64,000 nucleotides of DNA from Scytolyngbya sp. HA4215-MV1 (GTDB taxonomy: Bacteria; Cyanobacteriota; Cyanobacteriia; Leptolyngbyales; Leptolyngbyaceae), in the NCBI GenBank assembly GCA_019359045.1, contig JAHHIA010000013.1, positions 124,001-188,000 of the forward strand. Reading direction: 5' to 3'. The notes below the pieces were generated by a model. That model ran no database searches and was not told the origin of the DNA. It saw only the letters and a program-made list of their open reading frames with translations. The position numbers were made by a program, and so were the translations under genes. Shown here piece by piece: positions 27,860-43,920 of this stretch. Within the stretch, counting starts at the first letter, position 1; every line of letters begins with the position of its first letter.

Positions 27860-28031
27860 GTATATCAGAGAGTATCAGGTTTGTAATATGGCTATTCATC
27901 TGGTTCAGATTCCTGTTCAAATTAGCTATGGCTGAATCAGCGTTTGCTATCCCAAACCAAGAGCGCTGAGAGAGGCGTAAAGAAAAAGGCACTGCTCAAC
28001 GACATTCCCTTGAAATAGCAGTAGAGGATTA

Positions 28032-28065
28032 GAACCTCTAGGAAATCAAGATTTCCTAGAGGTTC
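28032..28065. repeat. 16-bp perfect palindrome near the tRNA-Arg 3' end
   Basis: GAACCTCTAGGAAATC and GATTTCCTAGAGGTTC are exact reverse complements separated by AA. No T-run follows in the tRNA-Arg direction. It could be a terminator or processing hairpin for tRNA-Arg. Confidence 0.7.
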
Positions 28066-28071
28066 CACTAA

Positions 28072-28145
<74 letters not shown>

Positions 28146-28328: not shown

Positions 28329-29885
28329 TTACTCACCAATTTTATCCTGCACTCCTCGAACGATCCGAGACAATTCACTCTTCTCATCCACCGAAACGCG
28401 ACTGGGAGAACCGCTAATAATCCGCTCAAAGTTACGGAACGAATCTTTAATTTCGGGTCCGCGTTCGCTGATTGTGTATTCGCGAATGCCTTTATCGTGC
28501 CAAGAACCACGCATTTTGAAGACGTTGATCGCACGGGACATTTCCCCACGAATTTCTACATATTGCAACATCAAAATAGTGTCGGTAATGGTAGAAATAT
28601 GGGAATCAGTAATCGAGTGCGACCCCATGAACTGATCGGTGGTATTGGTGAAGAAACCGGTAATTTCTTCCTGTTTGGCAAAGCCAGTCACCCCAATCAC
28701 AAACTGGCGAAAGGCGTTGTTGCTGACGCCACGTGCCAAGGCAGATAACGAATCGATCGCAATTCGAGACGGCTTAAACTCAGCGATTTCCGACTTGATG
28801 ATTTGCAAGTGATCCTCCAACCCTGCGGACTCGGGATAGGCACAGAGGATCTTGAGTAAGCCCTTTTGTTCCAAATCTTCAAAATCAATGCCCCAGGAAT
28901 AAGCGTTGCGTGATAACTGAGCACGGGACTCTTCGTAAGCAAACAAAATTGCGCGCTCACCGCGGACACAGGCGTCTTGCAAAAATTTGCTGACCAGCAG
29001 GGTTTTGCCCGTTCCGGTTGCGCCGGTTGCCAGAATGATAGAGTCTTTGAAAAAGCCGCCGCCACACATTTCATCCAGCGTTTTGACTCCCGAAGAAACG
29101 CGAGCATTGGACGATCGCTGGGTCAAGCGCATTGCCCCCAGCGGGAAGATATTAATGCCGTCATTGGTGATCGTGAAGGGATACTCCCCTTTCATGTGAG
29201 TGGTGCCGCGTAGCTTCAGAATTTCGACCGTACGCCGTCGCCGTTCACCTTCCAGAACATTACGCACAATCACCACATTATCTGAGACAAATTCCTCCAC
29301 TCCAAAGCGGGCAACGGGTCCGTACTCTTCAACCCGTTCTGTGGTCATGATGGTCGTCGCTCCAACCTGCTTCAGTCGCGCCACCAGGCGGAAGATTTCG
29401 CGCCGCACTACTGAAGCCGCATCATATTGTTGAAAGACCGCGGTTACAGAGTCGATCGAAACACGCTTTGCCTTGTATTTGAGAATTGCATACTGAATCC
29501 GCTCAATGAGCGCAGACAGGTCAAAATTACCCACCACGTCCTGCCCTTCTGGATCAGGAGATGCATCTAAAATAAATAACTTGCCTTCATCAACCAGTTT
29601 TTGCAAATCCCAGCCAAAGCTGCGGGCATTTTTAATAATATCGGCAGGTGATTCTTCAAAGGTGACAAAGATGCCAGCTTCATCAAAATGAATAATCCCG
29701 CTGTAGAGGAACTGAACCGCAAAAAGGGTTTTTCCAGTGCCTGAGGTACCACTAACCAACGTAGTTCTGCCAACGGGTAAGCCACCATGACTAATATCAT
29801 CGAATCCTTCGATGAGGGTTCGTAGTTTTTGGACTCCAGTGATGGGGGCTTCGTTCAAGTGCTCTGCCTGGCTCAACTGACTCAT
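28329..29885 (-). CDS. kaiC: Circadian clock ATPase/autokinase KaiC
   Basis: A 518-residue protein with two RecA-like halves. The CI Walker A is GTSGTGKT (residues 46-53), with the catalytic EE pair in FEESPADI. The CII Walker A is GATGTGKT. The phosphorylation sites of the Synechococcus protein are conserved at the same numbers: Ser431 and Thr432 in SHISTITDT, plus Thr426. The C-terminal A-loop and tail that bind KaiA (ISGSPSRVSVDEKSELSR) are intact. KaiC is the hexameric core of the circadian oscillator. It lies 103 bp downstream of kaiB, so the two are likely co-transcribed. Confidence 0.99.
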   Translation of the reverse strand: MSQLSQAEHLNEAPITGVQKLRTLIEGFDDISHGGLPVGRTTLVSGTSGTGKTLFAVQFLYSGIIHFDEAGIFVTFEESPADIIKNARSFGWDLQKLVDEGKLFILDASPDPEGQDVVGNFDLSALIERIQYAILKYKAKRVSIDSVTAVFQQYDAASVVRREIFRLVARLKQVGATTIMTTERVEEYGPVARFGVEEFVSDNVVIVRNVLEGERRRRTVEILKLRGTTHMKGEYPFTITNDGINIFPLGAMRLTQRSSNARVSSGVKTLDEMCGGGFFKDSIILATGATGTGKTLLVSKFLQDACVRGERAILFAYEESRAQLSRNAYSWGIDFEDLEQKGLLKILCAYPESAGLEDHLQIIKSEIAEFKPSRIAIDSLSALARGVSNNAFRQFVIGVTGFAKQEEITGFFTNTTDQFMGSHSITDSHISTITDTILMLQYVEIRGEMSRAINVFKMRGSWHDKGIREYTISERGPEIKDSFRNFERIISGSPSRVSVDEKSELSRIVRGVQDKIGE

Positions 29886-29988: not shown

Positions 29989-30303
29989 TCAGATTTCTGT
30001 TCCTCCTTCTAAGAGTTCTTCATAGAGTAGATCTAACCCAATCAAAACTTTTTCACGATCGGACAAATCGCCAATAATTTTACGAACGGGAGGCGGTAAA
30101 ATTTTTGCTAGCGTGGGGGTCGCTAAGATTTTATCTTCCTCAGCCAGTTGCGGGTTTTTTAAGACATCAATTACTTTGAGTGCGTAAACGCCCTGAAACT
30201 CGTTTTCTAGAATTTCATTGAGCGTCTTGAGTGCGCGGACAGAGTTTGGCGTGTTGCCAGCAACGTAGAGCTTAAGAACGTAGGTCTTTTTGAATGAACT
30301 CAT
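29989..30303 (-). CDS. kaiB: Circadian clock protein KaiB
   Basis: A 104-residue thioredoxin-like, fold-switching protein that binds the CI ring of KaiC and sequesters KaiA. The sequence [20 protein letters not shown] and the later [20 protein letters not shown] are characteristic. ATG 30303 matches the family; a longer frame to 30432 would add 43 unrelated residues. The acidic C-terminal tail ([10 protein letters not shown]) is present. It sits 89 bp downstream of kaiA. Confidence 0.98.
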
Positions 30304-30392: not shown

Positions 30393-31259
30393 TTAATCTT
30401 CTCGGGGAATTGTGCGCCGGTACATTTCGCACAAATGAGCAATCACATCAATCAAAGTTAATCGGTAATCGAGTAAGATTTCATCACTTCGCCCTTCTAA
30501 CTTTAACTGGGTTGAAAATTCATCCATTAATTCCATATGAATTTCTACAATTTGAGAAACTGGAATATCTGCGAAAAAAGCAGTATTCACAAAATCATCA
30601 ATTTTTTGATTGGGAGTATTATCTTTTCCAAAATAATGAAGAATGATTTCCCGATAGCTGAATCGAAGTTCTTCCAACAATTCTTGCTGTTGCTGTAACG
30701 GCAGATGTCGAAAAAAGTTTTTGGGGTTTCGTTTGTAATACACCCCTAAATACCCTAGTCTTTCTTTTAGTTTCTCGGTCAAACGACGTTGCTGAAGCAG
30801 GATAAAGTTTTGCCTAGTCAGGTCAGTAACCAGATCAGTTGTGGCTGGTTGGCTAGTCAGATGACAGGTCGGGGAAAGGTTGAGAAATTTCTCAATTGCC
30901 TGATTGATCGTGGAGGCAATTTGATCCAGGTGATCAATTGATAGATGAATTTCAGCCGTGTGATAAATCGAGTTTAGATGATCCAGACTCTCCGGGAGGG
31001 AAGCGATCGCCGATGACACTGAGCCAACTTCGCCAGCAGGCTCTTGCAGCGGGGATGGCAGCAGCAACACAGCAGGCAAAAGAATAATTTGTCGATGCAA
31101 GTGAGTTGCCAGTTTTGGCAACTCATCGTCTGCCTGCAATATTAAACAATCGACTTGCTGCTTTTCTTGCTCCATCAGGCTAAAAAGCGCTTCTGTGGAT
31201 TTGGGTTCAGCAATGAAATAACGTTCTCTACCCAGATAGTTTTTAAGCTTCTGGGACAT
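30393..31259 (-). CDS. kaiA: Circadian clock protein KaiA
   Basis: A 288-residue protein from ATG 31259; the frame extends to 31346 but the family begins near MSQKLKNYL. It has the full-length architecture: an N-terminal pseudoreceiver-like domain (about 1-140), a linker, and a C-terminal four-helix domain (from about 175, with [15 protein letters not shown] and [23 protein letters not shown]) that binds the KaiC tail and stimulates its autophosphorylation. Some cyanobacteria carry only the C-terminal part; here the long form is present. It precedes kaiB and diverges from the large sensor kinase. Confidence 0.97.
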
Positions 31260-31882
31260 AGAGTCAGATTTTAGAAACAAGCAGATAAAGATTGGGGAAC
31301 GCAAGGGTAATTCTGGGGAAAGTAAGGTTATCGAACAAGCTTTCAAAGCAATACTGAAATAAGTTACAAAACAACAGACTTGGAAGCCAAAACTAAACTT
31401 AAATTAATTAATTGTAACCATTATGCTTTCTGGAAACAGGTGACACATAATAGTTAAAGTCGAATCATTTAGGGACTCTATCTGAATCGCGAGAGATTTT
31501 ATTTCAGAAAATTTTCTTACTGGAAGCTTCTCAGAAAGTCTTTGATTTTTACCCATGACTTTTACAGACAGCCGAGGGATGTTATTGCTTGAGGGCTTTA
31601 GTCGGCTTGGTGATTAGTCATCATGAGTCCTGATTGAGTGGTGGTGGCCTTGTTGTAATAGAGAGAGGATTAGTCAGTCCCTCGTAAAATCATTTTTGAT
31701 CTTGACGTTAAATTTTAGCTTCAGATCTCAATTCACCATTTAAACTCAGAATTGAATCCAGCCCTTGAGCGCATTGGCATACTCTGAATCGTCAATGAGG
31801 AGATTTAAACGAGAAGTTTTAAGACTCCCGTAATGGTGTTCGCTGAAGTTTCCCCTTATCTTGAAGGCAGGCGATTAAGGTC
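31260..31882. other. Divergent promoter region between kaiA and the hybrid kinase
   Basis: 623 bp with no supported gene. It must hold the kaiA promoter (minus) and the kinase promoter (plus). The A/T-rich patch AAATTAATTAATTG at 31401-31414 is a possible promoter core. I see no clear conserved clock operator. Confidence 0.45.
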
Positions 31883-34800
31883 ATGGATAAAACCTGTCTA
31901 AAGAATTTTATTGCAATTGTTCCAAGGTGTGTCCAGAATGACCCCCTTGAGGTTGTCTTGGGGATTTTGCACCAAAGCGAGTGCGATCGCGTCGTGGTGG
32001 TCAACAGTCAAGAAGAGCCGCTAGGACTCATTTACCTTCATCAACTTTTGCCTTATTGGCTTGCGACCCAATTGCCCGTTCCCCCCTGCAATTTTGAATC
32101 TTCTACGACTAACCTGGGTGATCTACTTTCGACAAAGCAGCCCCTCACTACTATAGAGCCACAACGGCCGTTGGCGGAACTGGAATCAACGCTTCTCGTT
32201 CCGCTCACTTGCTTGTCTGCCAATCTGACACTTGAAAAAGTCTGGGTCAAGCTACAGCAGATCAAATCTCCGCTGGCGTTGGTCGATCTCAAGGGGCGCT
32301 TTGTGGGATTGCTCGATCCTTTGAAGGTATTGAAATTTCTGAAAGATTCTGTACCGGCACGATCGGAACGAGATGCCCCCACCGATCGTGCTGTATCCGC
32401 AGAACCCGCTCCGGAATTTGCTGCCTGGCATTCTCATCAGCCTATTCTGGATGCTCCCACTCAAGTACTCTTGCTGAGTCCCCTAGCACAATTGCTAGAA
32501 CAACTTCCCTTGCCACTGATGTTGCAAACGGGCAACGGGCAGATGGTGACTCAAAATTCAGCCTGGCACAAGCAGGTTGGAGAAATCCTCGATCCAGCCT
32601 GGGTAGGACGGGATGCAGCAGCGGAGTTTTCTCGTCGAAACTTGCCCGGAAATGATGGGGCAATGCATGCTTCCATGGGGCTGACAGCGGCAGAAACAAC
32701 CTCACCCAGCCTCTGTCAGTTGGGAGCAGAACCAAATACTTGCATTTGTACTTGCCTGATGAAGAATGGGCAGGAACGATCGTTGCAATTTATTAAAATC
32801 CCTTTGGGCAAAGCATTGCCGGGAGCCTTGCTGTCTAAGTTGGGTTGGCAGGCAGCGAGTCGGGCAGGAGAGAGTGCGGAGCTAAAAGAGTTTCAATTAG
32901 CCGCTCTGGAGATTGAACAGGCAAATTCGCTCCAACATGGGTTTGAAATTGCCGCTGCCAATGAGTCAGTGATGGTCAATCGAATGCGTTCGGAGGCGAT
33001 CGAGACCCGCAATCAGCCCACTGCCGATGTATTGTGGCTGGTGCTAGCACAAGATGTGACAGAACAACAACAATTGGCAAAGGAACTCACTGCCAAAAAT
33101 GCCGATCTGATTCAGCTAAACCGTTTAAAGGATGAATTTCTCGCCTGCATTAGCCACGAGTTGAAAACACCACTTACGGCAGTGCTGGGGCTGTCGAGTT
33201 TGCTCAAGGATCAGGCATCCGCAGGTTTGAGCGATCGCCAAATTCGCTATGCCCAGTTGATTTATCAGAGCGGTCGCCATTTGATGACAGTGGTCAATGA
33301 CATTCTGGATTTGACCCGGATCGAAACTGGACAGTTGGAATTGACTCCAGAACCTGTGCAAATTGCTTTGGTCTGTAGTCGCGCGATCGAACAATCCCTT
33401 CATCTCAAGAAAACTGACGATACCCCTCCATCCGGGCATTTCCCGGCTGCTGACCCTCCCCCTGCTCCAGCCTTAGAGATTGACTTAGATCTGGAGAACC
33501 TGGTTGCAGATGAACTCCGACTACGACAAATGCTGGTAAATCTCCTCTCGAACGCGCTCAAATTTACAGACACGCATGGGCAAGTTGGCTTAAAAGTCAG
33601 TCAATGGGCAGGTTGGATTGCCTTTACGGTTTGGGATACCGGAATTGGCATCCCGGCTGAAAAACAACATCTCATTTTTCAAAAATTCCAACAGCTTGAA
33701 AATCCTTTAACCCGACGGTTTGAAGGCACTGGATTAGGGTTAGTGTTGACCCAGCGTCTGGCACGATTGCATGGGGGGGATGTTACATTTATTTCTAAAG
33801 AAGGGGTGGGGAGCCAGTTTACGCTGCTGCTACCACCGCTACCGCCCAAACAATACGAAAACCGAGACAGCAGTAATCTCGAAGCGATGCCCAGCTTTGC
33901 TGCTGAAGTTGCCCCCAGTCAGGCGGGCTTAACCCGATCGGGCACTGCCAATTGTCTGGTGTTGGTGGTTGAAACGGTTCCTCGTTTTATTGAAGAACTC
34001 ACTGAACAATTGAGTGAAGCAGGCTATCCGGTGGTAGTAGCGCGATCGGGGACAGAAGCCCTCGAAAAAGCTCGTAAACTTCAGCCTTGTATTATCTTTC
34101 TGAATCCGCTGCTACCTTTGCTGTCAGGATGGGATGTATTGACCTTGCTCAAATCAGATACCGAAACTTGCCATATCCCTGCGGTGGTCACTGCGACCCG
34201 CGTTGAGAAAAAGCAAGCCTACCAAAACCAGGCGGATGGTTTTCTGAGCTTACCGATCCAAGCGGATGCTTTGCAAGAAACCCTGGAACAGCTAATTGCG
34301 GATGTGCCCTCAACCACCTCGACCAAGCCTCCGAGCGCGCTGAACCTTTCGGTGTTGCGGTTGAGTGTAACTCCGCTTTCAGAAAATTCGATCGCGCAGC
34401 AGAATCGGTTAGCCCACTCTCACCCATCAGCCAGCCCGGATCTCAACAGCTTGCTACACGCCTATCACTACCGCGTGCTAGAAGCAGATGACCTCGACCA
34501 GGCAGAACTGCTGGCGCGCGTTTGGAAACCCCAAGTCATTTTGTTAGACGGGTTTCTTCCCAATCCACAAGACTATTTAAAACAATTGGGACAGCACGCT
34601 TTTCTGGTATCGCTTCCGATCGTCACGTTGGATCATGCCATGACCCAGGCAGCGAATCAGGTTCCCGGTCTTTCTGTATTTCCTTGCCTGGTCGATCCCA
34701 TCGCTGAAGTCCATGCTGGCACGACGAACCCCAAAAACTCTGCCTTACTGCAAGCTATTCAGGTGGCGGCTGGATATGCCTGGCGACCCTTAATTTTAGC

Positions 34801-35254
34801 GGTCGATGTTTTGGCACTTCCTGATCTGGCAGAACCCCACAGTTCTGATTCTGCCTCTGACTTTTCTGAACTTGAGCTTTCGGAGTCAGAGGTTGCAGTG
34901 CAGCCAAGAGAATGGCTTCAAGTTTTGGTACAGTATGTCCACACAGCAGGTTATCGAAGTTTGCTCGGGCGCTCCTGGACAGAAGTCTTACGACAACTTC
35001 AGCACAAAAGTGCAGACCTCCTGTTGATTTACTGGCAAGATCTGGCTCCTAACCCCGTATTGATCCAGGCGATCGCCAACCTGCGACGGCTGCCGACCTG
35101 CCCTCCCATTCTCATCATCGATCGCCACTGGCAACCCGGAGAACCTACTCCCCCTAGCCTGCCCGAAGCCATCCGCGCCATCGCTACCCTCGTCCTCCCC
35201 GCTTCCACCCCCCTCAACGACCTGTTTGAGCAAATTAAGCAAATGCTGAAATAG
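31883..35254 (+). CDS. CBS-PAS hybrid sensor histidine kinase with three degenerate receiver-like domains
   Basis: An 1123-residue, apparently soluble protein. The N-terminus (about 1-155) resembles a CBS-domain pair (ECDRVVVVNSQEEPLGLIYL, LALVDLKGRFVGLLDPLKVL). A PAS-like region follows (about 200-390). The kinase core has the H-box ISHELKTPLTAVLG with His near residue 425, N-box NLLSNALKF (about 553), G1 DTGIGIP (about 587) and G2 GTGLGLVL, so it should be active. Three receiver-like domains follow (about 690-805, 850-960, 990-1123). In the first the phospho-acceptor Asp is replaced (IIFLNPLLPLLSGWD). The second has an Asp at 889 (ILLDGFLP) but is otherwise poor, and the third lacks the normal acidic pocket. 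It is divergent from kaiA, so a role in clock input or output is plausible but unproven. Confidence 0.88.
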   Translation: MDKTCLKNFIAIVPRCVQNDPLEVVLGILHQSECDRVVVVNSQEEPLGLIYLHQLLPYWLATQLPVPPCNFESSTTNLGDLLSTKQPLTTIEPQRPLAELESTLLVPLTCLSANLTLEKVWVKLQQIKSPLALVDLKGRFVGLLDPLKVLKFLKDSVPARSERDAPTDRAVSAEPAPEFAAWHSHQPILDAPTQVLLLSPLAQLLEQLPLPLMLQTGNGQMVTQNSAWHKQVGEILDPAWVGRDAAAEFSRRNLPGNDGAMHASMGLTAAETTSPSLCQLGAEPNTCICTCLMKNGQERSLQFIKIPLGKALPGALLSKLGWQAASRAGESAELKEFQLAALEIEQANSLQHGFEIAAANESVMVNRMRSEAIETRNQPTADVLWLVLAQDVTEQQQLAKELTAKNADLIQLNRLKDEFLACISHELKTPLTAVLGLSSLLKDQASAGLSDRQIRYAQLIYQSGRHLMTVVNDILDLTRIETGQLELTPEPVQIALVCSRAIEQSLHLKKTDDTPPSGHFPAADPPPAPALEIDLDLENLVADELRLRQMLVNLLSNALKFTDTHGQVGLKVSQWAGWIAFTVWDTGIGIPAEKQHLIFQKFQQLENPLTRRFEGTGLGLVLTQRLARLHGGDVTFISKEGVGSQFTLLLPPLPPKQYENRDSSNLEAMPSFAAEVAPSQAGLTRSGTANCLVLVVETVPRFIEELTEQLSEAGYPVVVARSGTEALEKARKLQPCIIFLNPLLPLLSGWDVLTLLKSDTETCHIPAVVTATRVEKKQAYQNQADGFLSLPIQADALQETLEQLIADVPSTTSTKPPSALNLSVLRLSVTPLSENSIAQQNRLAHSHPSASPDLNSLLHAYHYRVLEADDLDQAELLARVWKPQVILLDGFLPNPQDYLKQLGQHAFLVSLPIVTLDHAMTQAANQVPGLSVFPCLVDPIAEVHAGTTNPKNSALLQAIQVAAGYAWRPLILAVDVLALPDLAEPHSSDSASDFSELELSESEVAVQPREWLQVLVQYVHTAGYRSLLGRSWTEVLRQLQHKSADLLLIYWQDLAPNPVLIQAIANLRRLPTCPPILIIDRHWQPGEPTPPSLPEAIRAIATLVLPASTPLNDLFEQIKQMLK

Positions 35255-35301: not shown

Positions 35302-36936
35302 TTACACTCCATAACGTCTGGGATAGGGTTTCAAGAGCTTCTTCGCCTGATAGATAAAAAAGACCTCCGTCACAGTGCCACCCCGGCGGATAGGGATAGC
35401 GCCAATTTCTTGCATGGACTCAAAGTAAGACTGATAGAGTGCCAGAAGGCTTTGGCGTTTCTGGAATTGGCGAGTAGTGATATAGAGCGCGTCTTGCCCA
35501 ACCCATTGATCGGCTTTTGACCAAAATGCCAGTCCTCGGAGGTCTCGATCGAAGCAGGTGATCGGTTTTGGCTCCAGAGGCATAATTGCCATCGCCACCT
35601 GCCCTGCCAGGTAATAGCGATTGGTAAATACAAAGTCGGTGTTTTTTAGCGCTGCCATGAGTTCGGGCGATTGGACAAACCCTTGACGCAATTGCTGAAT
35701 ATCGATCAGTTGCACAGAGGCATCGGCACTGGGGGGTAAGAATCCGCCCAGCAGCGCGTATTGACCCGGTTTTTGAAAGGTCCCTGCGGCGATGTGAGAA
35801 AGCGCGATCGCCAAAATAGTGACAATCACCAGAGCGGAACCAACCAACCAACGCCGAATCAGACGCGGTGATCGTCGCTGCCTTTCTGCAGCCTGTTGCC
35901 CCAACAACAGCGTCGCCGTCCAAAAGCCAGGAATTTGCCAAGTAGGAAGAACCTGGGTGTAGCCCGAAACAAAGGCAAAGCCCAGAATCAGCGGCAGCGA
36001 TAACCAGAGGATCAAGGACTGCTTATCGGGCAAATGGGCAATCGTTGCCGTGTCCAAACGCAGCGCATTTTTTTTATTCCATTTAGAAGAAAGGTTTTGC
36101 CAGAGAGTTTTCAGGCTAACCCACCAGAGGGGAATCCCGATCGTCGGAAACAGATACAGCACACCCGTTAAAAAAGTGCCAATCACCTCTAGCAGGTTAT
36201 AGCCCCCATCCGGCACACCTCGTGCCGACTGGAACCGAATGGAGATCCATTCATGCTGAGCATTCCAAAACAAAATCGGACCAATGGCGATCAGAAACAA
36301 GCCAAACCCCAATCCAGTCCAGGGAGAAGCGAGTGCAGGGCGATAGCGACGATTCGTCAGACAAAAGCCGATCAACCCCACACCCAAGACAAAACCGTGA
36401 TATTTACCCAGACAAGCTAACCCCACCACCAACCCAATGATTGCCAGTCGATAACTGGGGCAGTAGGCATCAGGTTGGCGAAAAAATTCGTGGGCAGTCA
36501 CATACAGACACAGCGCCCAAAAAAACATCAGGGGACTATCCGGCAGAGTCAACAGCCCAAAGCCAATCAGAAAAATAGGCGCCATACTGGCGATCGCTAG
36601 CGTCAAGCGGGCAGCTCGCTGATTGAACAAAAATGCCCCAGTCTGATATAGAAAAATCAAGCTGCCGGTATACAAAATCAGCGTGCCGAGGCGCAGAGTA
36701 AACTGACTGATACTGCCCGTTAGCCAGGGACCAAACCCAGTAGTCAGCGCCACCAATACGGGATGGTCGAAATAGCTCCAATCGGGATGCAACGTGTAGA
36801 GATAGTAATAGGCTTCATCAAAACCCGGGTAGAGCCAGAGGGCAATCAGCACTCGCGCCAACAGTCCACCCACTAGTAAACCTAAAATCTGCTGGTGCGC
36901 TCTGTTTGCCAACCATTTCTGTAGTTCCAGAATCAA
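35302..36936 (-). CDS. GT39/ArnT-type membrane glycosyltransferase (first of pair)
   Basis: A 544-residue polytopic membrane protein with about ten hydrophobic segments, followed by a soluble C-terminal domain of about 120 residues. The first extracytoplasmic loop holds the acidic pair of the PMT/ArnT superfamily: YPGFDEAYYYLYT, followed by DWSYFDHPVLVAL. These enzymes transfer a sugar from a polyprenyl-phosphate donor on the periplasmic face. The start is a TTG whose last two bases join the TGA stop of the upstream GT39 gene (TTGA), indicating coupled translation. Acceptor and sugar are unknown. Confidence 0.88.
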   Translation of the reverse strand: MILELQKWLANRAHQQILGLLVGGLLARVLIALWLYPGFDEAYYYLYTLHPDWSYFDHPVLVALTTGFGPWLTGSISQFTLRLGTLILYTGSLIFLYQTGAFLFNQRAARLTLAIASMAPIFLIGFGLLTLPDSPLMFFWALCLYVTAHEFFRQPDAYCPSYRLAIIGLVVGLACLGKYHGFVLGVGLIGFCLTNRRYRPALASPWTGLGFGLFLIAIGPILFWNAQHEWISIRFQSARGVPDGGYNLLEVIGTFLTGVLYLFPTIGIPLWWVSLKTLWQNLSSKWNKKNALRLDTATIAHLPDKQSLILWLSLPLILGFAFVSGYTQVLPTWQIPGFWTATLLLGQQAAERQRRSPRLIRRWLVGSALVIVTILAIALSHIAAGTFQKPGQYALLGGFLPPSADASVQLIDIQQLRQGFVQSPELMAALKNTDFVFTNRYYLAGQVAMAIMPLEPKPITCFDRDLRGLAFWSKADQWVGQDALYITTRQFQKRQSLLALYQSYFESMQEIGAIPIRRGGTVTEVFFIYQAKKLLKPYPRRYGV

Positions 36937-38786
36937 AGTACACCTTCCCTGGCAACCCGAATCAGTTGATAGATGCCATCCTGGCGGATGACCTGATATT
37001 GCCCTGGAGAAAGTTTACTTTTTTGCAAAATTCGGGGAGAAAGAATCACGAGAACGGACTGAGCGGTCGGTTTTTGCTGAAACCATTGTTGAAGATAGGC
37101 GATCGTATTGCGGGGACGATCGAGATATCGGATCGACTGGCGAGTATAGAACACCAGGCTATGTTTATCAAAACCATCATCCACCATGATCACTGCTTCA
37201 TTCGGTCTTTCGGACTGCACCACCGTTTGGGCAATCTGTCGCAACGGCAACTGCCGCTCCACATCAATAATGTGCGTCACAGGAATCAACACAAATCCTA
37301 AAAAGATAACAAAGCTGACGAAGTGGGTGACTAACAGCCAGGGACGACGACGACTTAACCACAACCCCGCACCTGCGATCGCGCCAGTCCCCCAAATCAC
37401 AGCACCGATCATCGGCAACCCTGCCTGCTGAATCCGATCTCCCAGATTGGGCATAGAGGAGTCATTATCCAGCCAGTGGGGGCAATAGTAACAAACGATC
37501 GCAAGCGTCACCGTGCCAGCAAGACTCAGCACACTGCTGGCAGTGAGGCTGCGCACAATCGGTTGAGTCCCCGGCAAACGGACGATCGTATCGCGCCACC
37601 AGAGTGCGATCAAAATCGCTGCAGCTGCCACTGATGGCAAAACGTAGCTGAAGTATTTAGTGCTGGCAATGGTAAAGAAGCTCAGCACTGAGAAAAACCA
37701 GAACCAGGCAAAGACGGGCAAGTGGGTGGGGCGAGGTTGTTCTTGCCAATAGGCACGCGATCGCGGCAAGAAACGGACGATCGCGCCTGGCAAAAACAGC
37801 GACCAGGGCAAAAATGCCAGCAAAATCACCACCCAATGATAGAACCAGGGTCCCGCGTGGTCATTCACCACTTGAGTAAACCGCTCAATATTATGGAAGC
37901 CAAAAAACGCATTGAGATAAGTCGAGCCATTCCGCCAGGTGACCAAGACATACCAGGGCAGGCTAATCACCACCACCAATAGCAACCCTGGCAGCAGCAG
38001 CAGTTCTCGCGACACCTGTCTGAATTTGCCCAAATACGCCAGAAATAGGGCAATAATTAGTCCCGGTAAAACAATGCCAATGGGTCCCTTGGTCAACACT
38101 GCCAATGCGATAAAAACATATAATGCCAAATACCAGCGCACCTGCACCGATCGTCGTTCTGGCTGAGCATAACCTAGAAAAAACGACAGCAACGCCCCCC
38201 CCAGGCAGAAATTCAGCAGCATATCCGAATAACCCGTCCGCCCGAAGAAGAGCATGTAAGGGTTGAGAGCGGCGATCGCAGACCCTAGGAAAGGGGTGAG
38301 GGATGAGGGAAAAATTTTGGATTTTGGCTGAGCAATGTTGGATTGGCTCACTTCCCCCTCTCCCTCTCTCTCCACCTCCCTATCCCCGCGTCCCCGCGTC
38401 CCCCTCTCCCTGCATCCCTCCTCTCCCCGATCTCCCACCCACCAGAGCACATAAAAACACAGCCCCGTCAGCAGTAACCCCGCCAGGGCAGACGGTAGAC
38501 GTGCTGACCATTCGTTCACTCCTAAGATTTGGTAGGAGATCGCCATGAGCCAGTAAATCAACGGTGGCTTATCGAAGCGGGTTTGCTCGTTGAAATAGGG
38601 AGTGATCCAATCGCCGGTGACGGTCATCTGCCGTGCGGCTTCGGCAAAGAGGGGTTCGGTTTCATCAATCAACCCGGTGTTGCCTAACTGCCAGAAAAAT
38701 GCCAATCCTCCCACCAACAAGACCCAAAGAATGGACAGCATTCTGAAGACAGTTGGCTTTTGCCCAATTTTCAACAAACGACCCAT
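36933..38786 (-). CDS. GT39/ArnT-type membrane glycosyltransferase (second of pair) with low-complexity insert
   Basis: A 617-residue polytopic protein from ATG 38786; the frame extends upstream to a TTG at 38864 without family support. The catalytic loop reads GLIDETEPLFAEAARQM, then RFDKPPLIYWLM, typical of ArnT-like transferases. About ten membrane segments and a soluble C-terminus follow. Between two membrane segments it carries a charged low-complexity insert (DRGEEGCRERGTRGRGDREV and onward, nt about 38277-38442) that looks like intergenic filler read in frame. It directly precedes and overlaps the other GT39 gene. Confidence 0.9.
   Translation of the reverse strand: MGRLLKIGQKPTVFRMLSILWVLLVGGLAFFWQLGNTGLIDETEPLFAEAARQMTVTGDWITPYFNEQTRFDKPPLIYWLMAISYQILGVNEWSARLPSALAGLLLTGLCFYVLWWVGDRGEEGCRERGTRGRGDREVEREGEGEVSQSNIAQPKSKIFPSSLTPFLGSAIAALNPYMLFFGRTGYSDMLLNFCLGGALLSFFLGYAQPERRSVQVRWYLALYVFIALAVLTKGPIGIVLPGLIIALFLAYLGKFRQVSRELLLLPGLLLVVVISLPWYVLVTWRNGSTYLNAFFGFHNIERFTQVVNDHAGPWFYHWVVILLAFLPWSLFLPGAIVRFLPRSRAYWQEQPRPTHLPVFAWFWFFSVLSFFTIASTKYFSYVLPSVAAAAILIALWWRDTIVRLPGTQPIVRSLTASSVLSLAGTVTLAIVCYYCPHWLDNDSSMPNLGDRIQQAGLPMIGAVIWGTGAIAGAGLWLSRRRPWLLVTHFVSFVIFLGFVLIPVTHIIDVERQLPLRQIAQTVVQSERPNEAVIMVDDGFDKHSLVFYTRQSIRYLDRPRNTIAYLQQWFQQKPTAQSVLVILSPRILQKSKLSPGQYQVIRQDGIYQLIRVAREGVL
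38277..38442. repeat. Low-complexity purine-rich insertion within a coding sequence
   Basis: On the minus strand the segment is made of GGGGACGCGGGGAC, GGAGGTGGAGAGAGAGGG and a CCAATCCAACATTGCTCAGCC..AAATCCAAAAT stretch. Similar CCAAAATC-type short repeats occur between genes (for example near 48320), so this looks like an intergenic filler repeat that landed inside the gene without breaking frame. Confidence 0.65.
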
Positions 38787-38929
38787 CCAGTAGTCCAGCC
38801 TAAATTTCACGCGCCTGATTATTAAAGTTGAAGGATGCTTGCAAAGTCTTATCGCCTGTTGCAAGACCCGGAGATTCCCCTAAAGTCCCCTTTGTTAAGA
38901 GGACTTTCAGACTGATTCCCCTTTTGAAG

Positions 38930-40003: not shown

Positions 40004-43000
40004 TTAGATAGCGGGAAACCGTCGGCGAGGATCTAGAGGTTGCCCAGCCCCTTCCACAATCACATCTTCAACATCCCATTGCGCCGAGGTCACAGTAAGG
40101 AACGTTTGCTGGGCAACTGCAACCGTATTGATGTTAAACCAGATTAAGTTGACACCAGTACTGTAGTTACGCCAAACAATATCGTTCATACCATCTTTGT
40201 TGTAGTCGCCACAGGCTTCCACTACCCAACTAGTATCGAAGACATTGTTTGCCATGACCACTGTAGAGGTCGGTGTAGTCCCCTTCATTGTCCAGAAAAC
40301 CACCTGACCCACTTGTGGCCCCGTTGTGCCGTAGTAGTGCCAGAGGATATCCGGGGAATCGTCACCGTTATAATCTCCCACCGACTCAATCACCCACTTC
40401 GGATCAGTGACTCGAAGTGGCAGGACAACGGTTGAAGTTGGCGTCACTCCATTCATCGTCCAGATCGAGACCATCCCGGCTTCGGGACCAGTACTCTCGT
40501 AATTGCGCCAGAGGATATCCAGTTCGCAATCCCCATTAAAGTCACCGATGCCATCAATGCGCCAGAGGGGATTAGTGACAGCCAACGGTAATACAACGGT
40601 GGCGACGGGAGTTGTTCGGTTCATTAACCAGATGTAAACCTTTCCGGCTTCGGGCCCCGTTGTGTCATAGTTACGCCAGACAATATCTGCCATCCCATCC
40701 CCATTGAAGTCTCCCGTACCTTCCACCACCCAGTTAGGATTGAGGATGTCAAACGGCAGCGCTACAGTCGAAGTGGGCACAGGTCCATCCATTGTCCAGA
40801 TATAGGTCTTGCCAGCTTCTGCGCCAGTGGTGCCGTAGTTGCGCCAAACAATATCTGCCAGACCATCCCCATTGAAATCATTAATATCGTTGATCAACAC
40901 CTTCAGTGTGCCTAGTGCCCCCGCTGTGCCAAAGCCCCCAATTGTATTGCTGACCTGATTGGCTTCCAGACTGAAAACATAGGTTCCATTATCACTCATG
41001 CCCCAGGTGCCGCCAGGTGCGGTAAAGCGATAGGTGGCTGTCAGGGTTGTGTTGTTGCCGGAAGGGGTTACGCTGACGAGTGTTGCCAGTTGATTAAAGC
41101 CTCGGGGGCCGGTCACCCGAATATCTTGACTATCCAGGCTAGCAAAATTGACACTGTTGGCAGAGTTGTAGGTCACGGTAAAGGTCTGGTCGATACCGCA
41201 ACCTACTCGAAGATCGGGAATGGCAGTGAGCAATGCTGACGGATTCCCACCGCCGCCACCGCCACCACCACCGCCACCATCGTCATCTAGAATGGTGATG
41301 GTTTGCACCTTGTTCAGGCCCACCCCAGCTGTCGTAGACGGTTGCAAGGTGAGAATGATCGTTTCATTAGGTTCAACCAGCGTATCGTTAATGATGTTGA
41401 AGTTGGCTGTTGCAGTGGTGCTACCCGCCGTAATCACGAAGTTGCCAGTACCAACCGTGTAGTCAACCCCATTTTGAGCAGTCCCTGTGAGCGTAAAGGG
41501 GACGGTGACATTACTAGCTACTGCATTCGAGAGTTGTACGGTGGTGGTAGCAGTGCCGATCGCCTCAGGCACCGTGATCGAAGGCGCTGTAAAATCCAGA
41601 ATAGGCAGAATACTCTGTACATCCAGCGATCGAATTTCATGGATATTCGTGGATGACCCCGTCGAAGCAGCAAAGCCTAACTTGAAGGTCGCCGGTAAGG
41701 CTCCATTGACTGTGGCAACGTTAAAGTTCGTAATCGGTTGCTCACCTGCGTCGGCAAAATCATTGTCCTGGTTGAGATCAATCTGCACCGACAGCGCCCC
41801 TGCTTGGGTCAGATTAATCTGCACCAGGTGACGAGAGTTGGTACGATTGCCACCATTTGCCGCAGTCACATCCAGCGCACTGGACAAAGGCTGACCCGTT
41901 AAAAACCCATAGTTCGTTGCTTGCCCGCCCCGAACCGCAACCGAGTCAGGGCGATTCCCAGGCCCTCCCCGAGAGACCGACGTCTGCCCGCCCAGTGTAG
42001 GACTCGAAAAGTTACCAAAGGCATCAAATCCGATCCCCAGATAGCCCCCAACGATATCGACATACCCTAAGCCACCGCCCGAAAGACCCGCCTGCGTTGG
42101 GTTAGAATTGCCATCGACCAGGAAGAAACTAATGCCATCCGCGCCCGTACCGCCATACTGGAAGATTTCAAAAGAAATCGTCAACCCCCCACTCGCAGTA
42201 AACGGTTGGTTATAGATAACAAATCCGCCCTGGTTGGTCGAATTATCGGTCAGGCGCAGAAATCCATTCCCGTTCGTATCGATCGCGGGTGAAGACGATC
42301 GACCCGGCAGCCCCCCCGGTGCAGAAGGCGGACCCACCCTTGCAGTAAGGAAGGGATCTTGGGCACTCCCACCACTGTTGCCAAACAGCCAGGTAAATTG
42401 GCTAACATCATTATTTCGGAAACTTTCAGCGACCAGGGGTGCAAGCGTAAACCCGTACTCTGCTAGCGTCCAGGGGTCAAACACCAGGGAACTGGTAATT
42501 GCCCCAACTTGGGTTTCCAGATTCCAACTTCCCCCCAAAGCAACATTGCCAATCAGATGACGAGACGCTGCAATATTGGCTCCAGTTAGCTGTGCCAGTT
42601 GTTGCACAAAAGCTTGACCTTCAGCCCCCTCAGCGACCTGACAGCCATACAAAAGAATATCTGCCTTGTCCGTCAGTGCTTTACTCCAGGTGCGGATTTG
42701 GTCAGCCTTTTGACGTAGGGCAGCCAGATTGAGGCAAGATTTTCCCAAAAGTAAATTGCCAGGTTGCCCATGAGAAACCAAGTGTAGACTCGTAATGCCT
42801 GTACGCCCTTGCAAAACTTGGGTAATTTGAGCGATCGCATCCTTTTCGGTATCTAAAACATAGACCTCTACCCCTGGAACAACCCCCTCAATCAGCCTTG
42901 AGTAATTTACAACTGCGGAATCAATAAAGAGCACAGTCGCAGGAGTGTTGAACGCAGATGCAAACCATTGAAAGGTAGGCGAACTGAATAAGCGACCAGC

Positions 43001-43066
43001 CAGAGAAGAAAACACCACTTGAGAAGACCAAACAGATAGGTTGGTAGATAGCCTGATCGTGTCCAT
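40004..43066 (-). CDS. DUF4347 surface/secreted protein with lectin-like, Calx-beta and FG-GAP repeats
   Basis: A 1020-residue protein from ATG 43066; a longer frame to 43129 has no support. Domains: DUF4347 (about 35-205; ATVLFIDSAV, LHLVSHGQPGNLLLG, ILLYGCQVAEGAEGQAFV), an L-type-lectin-like region (about 215-470; LTISFEIFQYGGTGADGISF), a Calx-beta domain (about 489-592; ending TITILDDD), a run of 11 glycines, an Ig-like segment, and five FG-GAP repeats (about 725-1010) with DFNGDGxADIVWRNY. DUF4347 proteins in cyanobacteria are usually large exported adhesin-like proteins. The FG-GAP part is closely similar in wording to that of the adhesin at the left edge. It lacks a classical signal peptide; export route is unknown. 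Confidence 0.88.
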   Translation of the reverse strand: MDTIRLSTNLSVWSSQVVFSSLAGRLFSSPTFQWFASAFNTPATVLFIDSAVVNYSRLIEGVVPGVEVYVLDTEKDAIAQITQVLQGRTGITSLHLVSHGQPGNLLLGKSCLNLAALRQKADQIRTWSKALTDKADILLYGCQVAEGAEGQAFVQQLAQLTGANIAASRHLIGNVALGGSWNLETQVGAITSSLVFDPWTLAEYGFTLAPLVAESFRNNDVSQFTWLFGNSGGSAQDPFLTARVGPPSAPGGLPGRSSSPAIDTNGNGFLRLTDNSTNQGGFVIYNQPFTASGGLTISFEIFQYGGTGADGISFFLVDGNSNPTQAGLSGGGLGYVDIVGGYLGIGFDAFGNFSSPTLGGQTSVSRGGPGNRPDSVAVRGGQATNYGFLTGQPLSSALDVTAANGGNRTNSRHLVQINLTQAGALSVQIDLNQDNDFADAGEQPITNFNVATVNGALPATFKLGFAASTGSSTNIHEIRSLDVQSILPILDFTAPSITVPEAIGTATTTVQLSNAVASNVTVPFTLTGTAQNGVDYTVGTGNFVITAGSTTATANFNIINDTLVEPNETIILTLQPSTTAGVGLNKVQTITILDDDGGGGGGGGGGGNPSALLTAIPDLRVGCGIDQTFTVTYNSANSVNFASLDSQDIRVTGPRGFNQLATLVSVTPSGNNTTLTATYRFTAPGGTWGMSDNGTYVFSLEANQVSNTIGGFGTAGALGTLKVLINDINDFNGDGLADIVWRNYGTTGAEAGKTYIWTMDGPVPTSTVALPFDILNPNWVVEGTGDFNGDGMADIVWRNYDTTGPEAGKVYIWLMNRTTPVATVVLPLAVTNPLWRIDGIGDFNGDCELDILWRNYESTGPEAGMVSIWTMNGVTPTSTVVLPLRVTDPKWVIESVGDYNGDDSPDILWHYYGTTGPQVGQVVFWTMKGTTPTSTVVMANNVFDTSWVVEACGDYNKDGMNDIVWRNYSTGVNLIWFNINTVAVAQQTFLTVTSAQWDVEDVIVEGAGQPLDPRRRFPAI

Positions 43067-43920
43067 AAATATTGGATGACTCCTGAAAGGGTTACGCCCT
43101 TCACAAAATGAGCATGGCAAATTGGGCATCAGATCAATTGCCTTAATGCCATTCAGTATGAGCGCTCAAAGATCAACAAGTTTCAAAAAAATCAGCTTTT
43201 CTAGTCTTTGCGACTACAGATCTAGAACAGCTCCAGGGAACCACAGCAAAATTACGCCATTAGACAGAGCTCCGTAGTCTTAGCATCCTAGATCAATCTA
43301 TATCACCGATCGATCTATTCACTGATTCGATAGCTGTCATGTTAGATTATTCCAAACTTACGTACTTGTACGCAGGAAATGTGCACCCTTGTATGTAGGA
43401 GTACTTTACAACAAGTCGAAGAGAAAAACTTTTCAGATTTTCTGATATTAATGACACTTAATAGTTCTAGTGAACTTTCATAAAATATATGAGTCAAATG
43501 GCAAAAACACTGGCAAGATTTGTTTTTTTGTGTATCTAATCTTTCTTGTAATTTTCGTAAAGGGCAAGCGCACTCGGAAGAAAATTCATTAAAAGGGGTA
43601 GTAAGTTTCTAATCTAGAAAAATGAGTCTTAAACTACAAATTCTCAAAAAGCAGAGCTTGAGTGCATGATTCTCACCGCAAAAGTCCCAACCGAATTGCC
43701 ATCTCATCTGAATTAAATCGGACTGTAAATTTACTGAGAATGGAATTACGGGTATCAAAAATGAAAATCTGCTTTCGCTAGTCATTGAAAACATGAGCCA
43801 GATCGAGTCGGAATCTCGCCAACAGTATCTCTTTTGGGGGGGTGAACGATACACCATGCCTCTTTCGCAAAGGGGTTCACCCTCCGCCTGAAATCGGTGC
43901 TCAGATTTTTGCGATTTTTT
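43067..43920. other. Intergenic region
   Basis: About 850 bp with no supported gene. It is A/T-rich from 43400 to 43600. Short frames here (for example 43609-43857 minus) show no protein-like features. It must contain the promoter of the DUF4347 gene. Confidence 0.45.

Follow-up and report, generated by a model that had tools for sequence, protein, structure and literature searches.

A hybrid histidine kinase encoded head-to-head with kaiA in Scytolyngbya sp. HA4215-MV1 is a member of a conserved family with a conserved position, beyond what chance would produce. We lean, by a modest degree, towards its being a KaiA-linked hybrid histidine kinase that constitutes a third clock-associated kinase, beside SasA and CikA, in non-model cyanobacteria. 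The relevant features of the window (the whole stretch of 64,000 nucleotides that was analyzed) are as follows.

28329-29885, minus strand: kaiC (TIGR02655, 1051 bits)
29989-30303, minus strand: kaiB (TIGR02654, 2.9e-55; taken from Met44 of the called sequence)
30393-31346, minus strand: kaiA (PF07688, 5.7e-64; PF21714, 5.9e-34; called from TTG, true start uncertain)
31347-31882, no strand: divergent intergenic region between kinase and kaiA (536 bp between called starts, that of kaiA being uncertain)
31883-35254, plus strand: KaiA-linked hybrid histidine kinase (1123 aa, ATG to stop)
31883-32350, plus strand: two CBS motifs forming a Bateman module (aa 1-156), without the canonical S/T and D/N that contact the nucleotide
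32456-33055, plus strand: PAS-like domain (aa ~192-391) containing a long insert modeled at low confidence (assigned from the model's secondary structure and from PAS-like motifs)
33128-33331, plus strand: DHp (HisKA) with phospho-accepting His425 at 33155-33157 (Pfam, alignment)
33509-33838, plus strand: catalytic ATP-binding domain, N, G1 and G2 boxes intact (Pfam, alignment, fold search)
33950-34300, plus strand: pseudoreceiver 1 (PsR1); V-E at the acidic pair, N741 for Asp (34103-34105), Leu for Lys, conserved LNPxLPLLSGWDV
34340-34777, plus strand: pseudoreceiver 2 (PsR2), the family hallmark; RxLEADDLxQAELLARVWxPDVxLLD...LPLVTLDxxTTxAANQ...VFPCL
34787-35251, plus strand: pseudoreceiver 3 (PsR3), present only in a subset of orthologues

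The domain order CBS-CBS-PAS-HisKA-HATPase-PsR1-PsR2-PsR3 was derived from Pfam, from an alignment of 56 family sequences (on which the conservation counts are based) and from an AlphaFold2 model of the 1123-residue protein (mean pLDDT 77). When the whole protein was scanned, Pfam reported HisKA (416-483), HATPase_c (543-652) and one receiver (693-801), while three receiver folds were apparent in the model (690-806, 820-965 and 969-1123). Fold searches with the whole model were swamped by kinase cores and receivers and therefore did not probe the CBS and PAS parts; the CBS region was judged by profile instead.

The kinase lies on the plus strand and kaiA, kaiB and kaiC on the opposite strand, in agreement with the head-to-head arrangement described in the initial annotation, which had also named a lack of conserved kai linkage as a result that would refute its proposal; the linkage proved strongly conserved. 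Among named genomes, a divergent kinase orthologue was located directly upstream of kaiA at 66 of 78 testable, KaiA-anchored loci (two contigs that were too short are left out of the 78), and in 58 relatives the matches to the kinase N-terminus and to KaiA fell side by side. The carriers include Nostocales, Thermosynechococcus, Microcystis and Prochloron. The test was extended to the class by searching 390 genomes with a profile of the PsR2 domain, KaiA being searched in the same set. KaiA was present in 146 of the 150 strongest genomes (E <= 1e-28), the other four being 69-85% complete assemblies. Where both genes shared a contig in these strongest genomes, 131 of 132 pairs were head-to-head within 7 kb, the single exception being genome G042; in 14 genomes they were on different contigs. 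Weaker matches to the profile gave a similar picture (17 of 18 same-contig pairs). The next gene past the kinase served as a control and was common to no more than 11 of 46 loci. The class-wide linkage, together with this weaker conservation of the next gene, led us to reject chance adjacency and local gene order.

The adjacency of the two genes is nevertheless not proof of physical interaction between their products. The kinase could be unrelated to the clock mechanism, the two genes staying paired because they share a divergent promoter region or because an old gene order has persisted. The divergent orientation and the intergenic gap of a few hundred bases are in keeping with such an explanation, as is the fact that the ancestral order reaches one gene further in some lineages: a PMT_2-family glycosyltransferase is encoded at 36933-38864 of the window, and its relatives just past the kinase in the 11 loci mentioned suggest an old order kaiCBA-kinase-PMT. 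However, the link between kinase and kaiA outlasts that of the next gene and spans the class, and strong kinase matches lacking KaiA occurred only in incomplete assemblies. Moreover, a few lineages have broken the linkage yet retain the kinase, with KaiA still present (away from kaiA in G042 and G145, and on other contigs in G157, G234 and G240); these unlinked cases weigh, conversely, against our preferred reading as well. We consider the absence of any clock role unlikely.

The kinase orthologue was missing from the kaiA loci of Synechocystis and Crocosphaera, among others of the named genomes. It was also absent from genome G045, whose KaiA is that of PDB 1r8j (555 bits over the full length), which identifies the organism as S. 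elongatus or a very near relative. The ORFs upstream of kaiA in G045 are presumably L27, L21 and TruB, plus a stand-alone receiver. A stand-alone receiver protein was observed at the S. elongatus locus L179 (4162-4545), about 1 kb upstream of kaiA and past ribosomal protein genes. Since the clocks of S. elongatus and Synechocystis run without the gene, the kinase is not part of the core clock machinery. It is in place beside kaiA in Thermosynechococcus, whose KaiA matches 1q6a and 1v2z, and in genomes whose KaiA is of the short, Nostocales-typical form.

The parallel with CikA drawn in the initial annotation holds for the architecture, i.e., a kinase followed by a C-terminal pseudoreceiver, and does not extend to identity. 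This genome encodes a separate CikA (G000:C14:275-2518; 44% identity over residues 17-739), recognized via the S. elongatus protein with a C-terminal match to PDB 2j48, and a separate SasA (G000:C7:290027-291256; 544 bits). In a maximum-likelihood tree of 64 kinase cores, 39 family members formed one group, including three that have moved away from kaiA, and the CikA cores formed another, each supported at 100/98 against the other. Orthology with CikA, or a relocation of these organisms' own CikA to a site beside kaiA, could be argued from the shared layout (input domains, HisKA, ATPase, pseudoreceiver) and from the alignment of PsR1 with the CikA pseudoreceiver (98.7%), a value that is indistinguishable from general receiver homology. 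The tree and the coexistence with CikA in one genome refute this proposition, and no Pfam match to a GAF domain was detected before the kinase core, where CBS and PAS-like domains are located instead; we regard it as extremely improbable. Identity with SasA is likewise excluded, as the N-terminus is CBS rather than KaiB-like and the true SasA lies elsewhere in the genome.

By analogy, the family would resemble CikA as a soluble, clock-associated HisKA kinase ending in one or more pseudoreceivers, for which use in docking and in autoinhibition is plausible. It differs from CikA in its CBS-CBS-PAS (rather than GAF) input, its two or three pseudoreceivers and its linkage to kaiA. With SasA it would share the category of clock-associated histidine kinase, SasA having a KaiB-like N-terminal domain and no receiver. 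Among the curated NCBIfam models, that of the HrmK-type hybrid kinases (NF038297) comes nearest to the HisKA-ATPase-receiver core; the protein scored 282 bits against it, far under the cut-off of 725 bits. The receiver domains recall the N-terminal domain of KaiA and the receiver of KaiA3, as non-canonical receivers tied to the Kai oscillator, but none of PsR1-3 was detectably similar to the KaiA N-domain in any specific way, a result that counts against our preferred reading.

All of the boxes of a histidine kinase (HisKA/HATPase_c) are intact in the window protein (H425, N557, D585-x-G587 and GTGLGL at 615-620), as first described. The core is likewise intact in most members of the 56-sequence alignment, and the phospho-accepting histidine is invariant (56 of 56). 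Residues of the N, G1 or G2 boxes are lost in 10 of the 56 rows (Thermosynechococcus, Nodosilinea, Hyella and others), two of which are near-identical Thermosynechococcus sequences, so that the independent losses number fewer than ten. Such repeated loss with retention of the histidine was seen at loci L181, L182, L139, L143, L191, L083 and L126, including Thermosynechococcus. Relative to the intact members, the consensus was retained in the broken rows to 0.81 and 0.87 in the two CBS motifs and to 0.80 in PsR2, while the catalytic domain and PsR1 showed the lowest retention among the large domains (0.51 for both). This pattern implies that PsR1 evolves with the catalytic core, and that PsR2 and the CBS end are under separate constraint. 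The family also provides a natural series of cases with pseudoreceivers that persist after kinase activity has gone.

A phosphorylatable receiver carries an acidic pair, an Asp and a Lys. PsR1 of the window protein has V-E at the acidic pair, Asn-Pro at the Asp position (N741-P, as originally read) and L790 at the Lys position, a register confirmed by a residue-by-residue match to PleD. Its fold superposes on the PleD and RpaA receivers (Z about 19). PsR2 has kept the Asp (D889), lacks the acidic pair and has Phe at the Lys position; its receiver fold is a prediction, drawn from the models, from a Pfam match of marginal score and from Foldseek hits that cover both receivers. PsR3 superposes on KdpE (Z 15.8) and is devoid of phosphorylation residues. 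The three domains had initially been described as decayed, and the phosphorylation chemistry is indeed absent from all of them. They are, however, not decaying: the PsR1 substitutions are family-wide (Val-Glu at the acidic pair, Asn at the Asp position in 41 of 56 sequences, Leu at the Lys position in 48 of 56), and the domain is conserved, with a mean column identity of 59%. They are thus conserved pseudoreceivers.

The CBS input proposed in the initial annotation proved real as a fold. A CBS match (18-56), sub-threshold in the Pfam scan of the whole kinase, exceeded the cut-off once the N-terminus was scanned alone (29.5 versus 24 bits), and Pfam CBS was found in 36 of 40 family members. The N-terminal family profile matched CBS proteins in the PDB (best 1.5e-24), AMPK gamma among them, and most of the region was modeled at pLDDT >90. 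The N-terminus carries both CBS motifs of a Bateman module; in addition, there is a PAS-like domain at ~192-391 that had previously been missed. The latter was recognized from the motifs LLEQLPLPLMLQ...QN and LWLVLAQDVTEQ, and no Pfam PAS match was found for this region.

CBS motifs that bind adenosine nucleotides usually bear G-h-x-[S/T]-x-x-[D/N], and none of the 55 orthologues examined has this signature at either motif. The suggested link between energy state and clock is weakened by this absence of the adenosyl-binding Ser/Thr and Asp/Asn. An energy sensor, whose CBS pair would bind AMP, ADP or ATP and relay the energy state of the cell to the clock, could claim the genuine CBS fold, the AMPK gamma match and the retention of the module where the catalytic domain has eroded; the missing motif speaks against it, as does the fact that KaiC by itself already reports ATP/ADP, and such a sensor seems rather improbable. 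The input may come from a different ligand or from a partner protein, or there may be no input at all.

In the reading that we prefer, the kinase would act as follows. The CBS/PAS end would sense some input. PsR2 would serve as a docking surface for a Kai protein, either KaiA or KaiB on KaiC. PsR1 would pack on the kinase core and gate catalysis, a proposal that draws on its joint erosion with the catalytic domain and on the analogy with CikA, whose pseudoreceiver is a binding partner of fold-switched KaiB and, as modeled by structural superposition, blocks the kinase histidine (PMC6378743). The core would exchange phosphate, in one direction or the other, with a distinct output regulator, for which RpaA is the first candidate; an external partner is called for because none of the kinase's own receivers can accept phosphate. 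In lineages with a broken ATP site, the kinase would serve as a docking protein or as a phosphotransfer or phosphatase DHp.

Alternatively, the kinase might control transcription at the shared intergenic region (kaiA/kaiBC feedback) via RpaB or RpaA, rather than docking to the oscillator. HLR1-like direct repeats (TTACA-N5-TTACA) occurred in 8 of 27 kinase-kaiA intergenic regions (loci L069-L148), versus 0.08 expected from mononucleotide shuffles, and are possible RpaB sites; RpaB is known to act on the S. elongatus kaiBC promoter (PMC13421787). Nevertheless, no HLR1-like repeat was found in the window's own region, where a promoter scan (31347-31882) returned matches at chance level, and such feedback would leave the retention of PsR2 in the absence of a working ATP site unexplained. 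This alternative appears improbable, slightly more so than an energy sensor.

Knowledge of the cyanobacterial clock comes mostly from S. elongatus, in which input and output proceed via KaiA, CikA and SasA. Judging from the sequences, most cyanobacterial lineages carry a kaiA-adjacent kinase with receivers that are unphosphorylatable yet strongly conserved. If most lineages other than the models use this kinase, the standard clock wiring lacks a component in these groups, among them the nitrogen-fixing Nostocales and the bloom-forming Microcystis. It is an even call whether the family represents a widespread, kaiA-linked third clock kinase, overlooked since both main models lack the gene, in which PsR2, as a novel type of pseudoreceiver, serves to read the oscillator, and which survives in several lineages as a catalytically dead docking protein with its histidine retained.

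No description of a kaiA-linked CBS kinase was found in the open-access literature, and a subscription paper may exist; this may reflect the absence of the gene from S. elongatus and Synechocystis, the usual laboratory clock species. Anabaena all2883, which we take to be the neighbor of kaiA in that organism, turned up only in a list of the predicted CRP regulon (PMC2633013). A CBS kinase of Arthrospira is phosphorylated at S210 (PMC7291507), but is probably a different protein, as the CBS region of the kaiA-linked kinase ends at residue 156. What is new here is the hybrid kinase family with conserved pseudoreceivers and its conserved tie to kaiA, with the proviso that an open-access search is not proof of novelty.

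Several minor observations were also made. The kinase is broken into at least two ORFs at loci L085 (4482-7837) and L140 (1474-4695), owing to a frameshift, a pseudogene or a sequencing error. The tRNA-Gly(ccc) that ARAGORN called at 28015-28108 of the window overlaps a tRNA-Arg, lacks Rfam support and is probably spurious. A large protein encoded at 40004-43129, in which Calx-beta-like and FG-GAP-like repeats were read by eye, is probably a surface protein.
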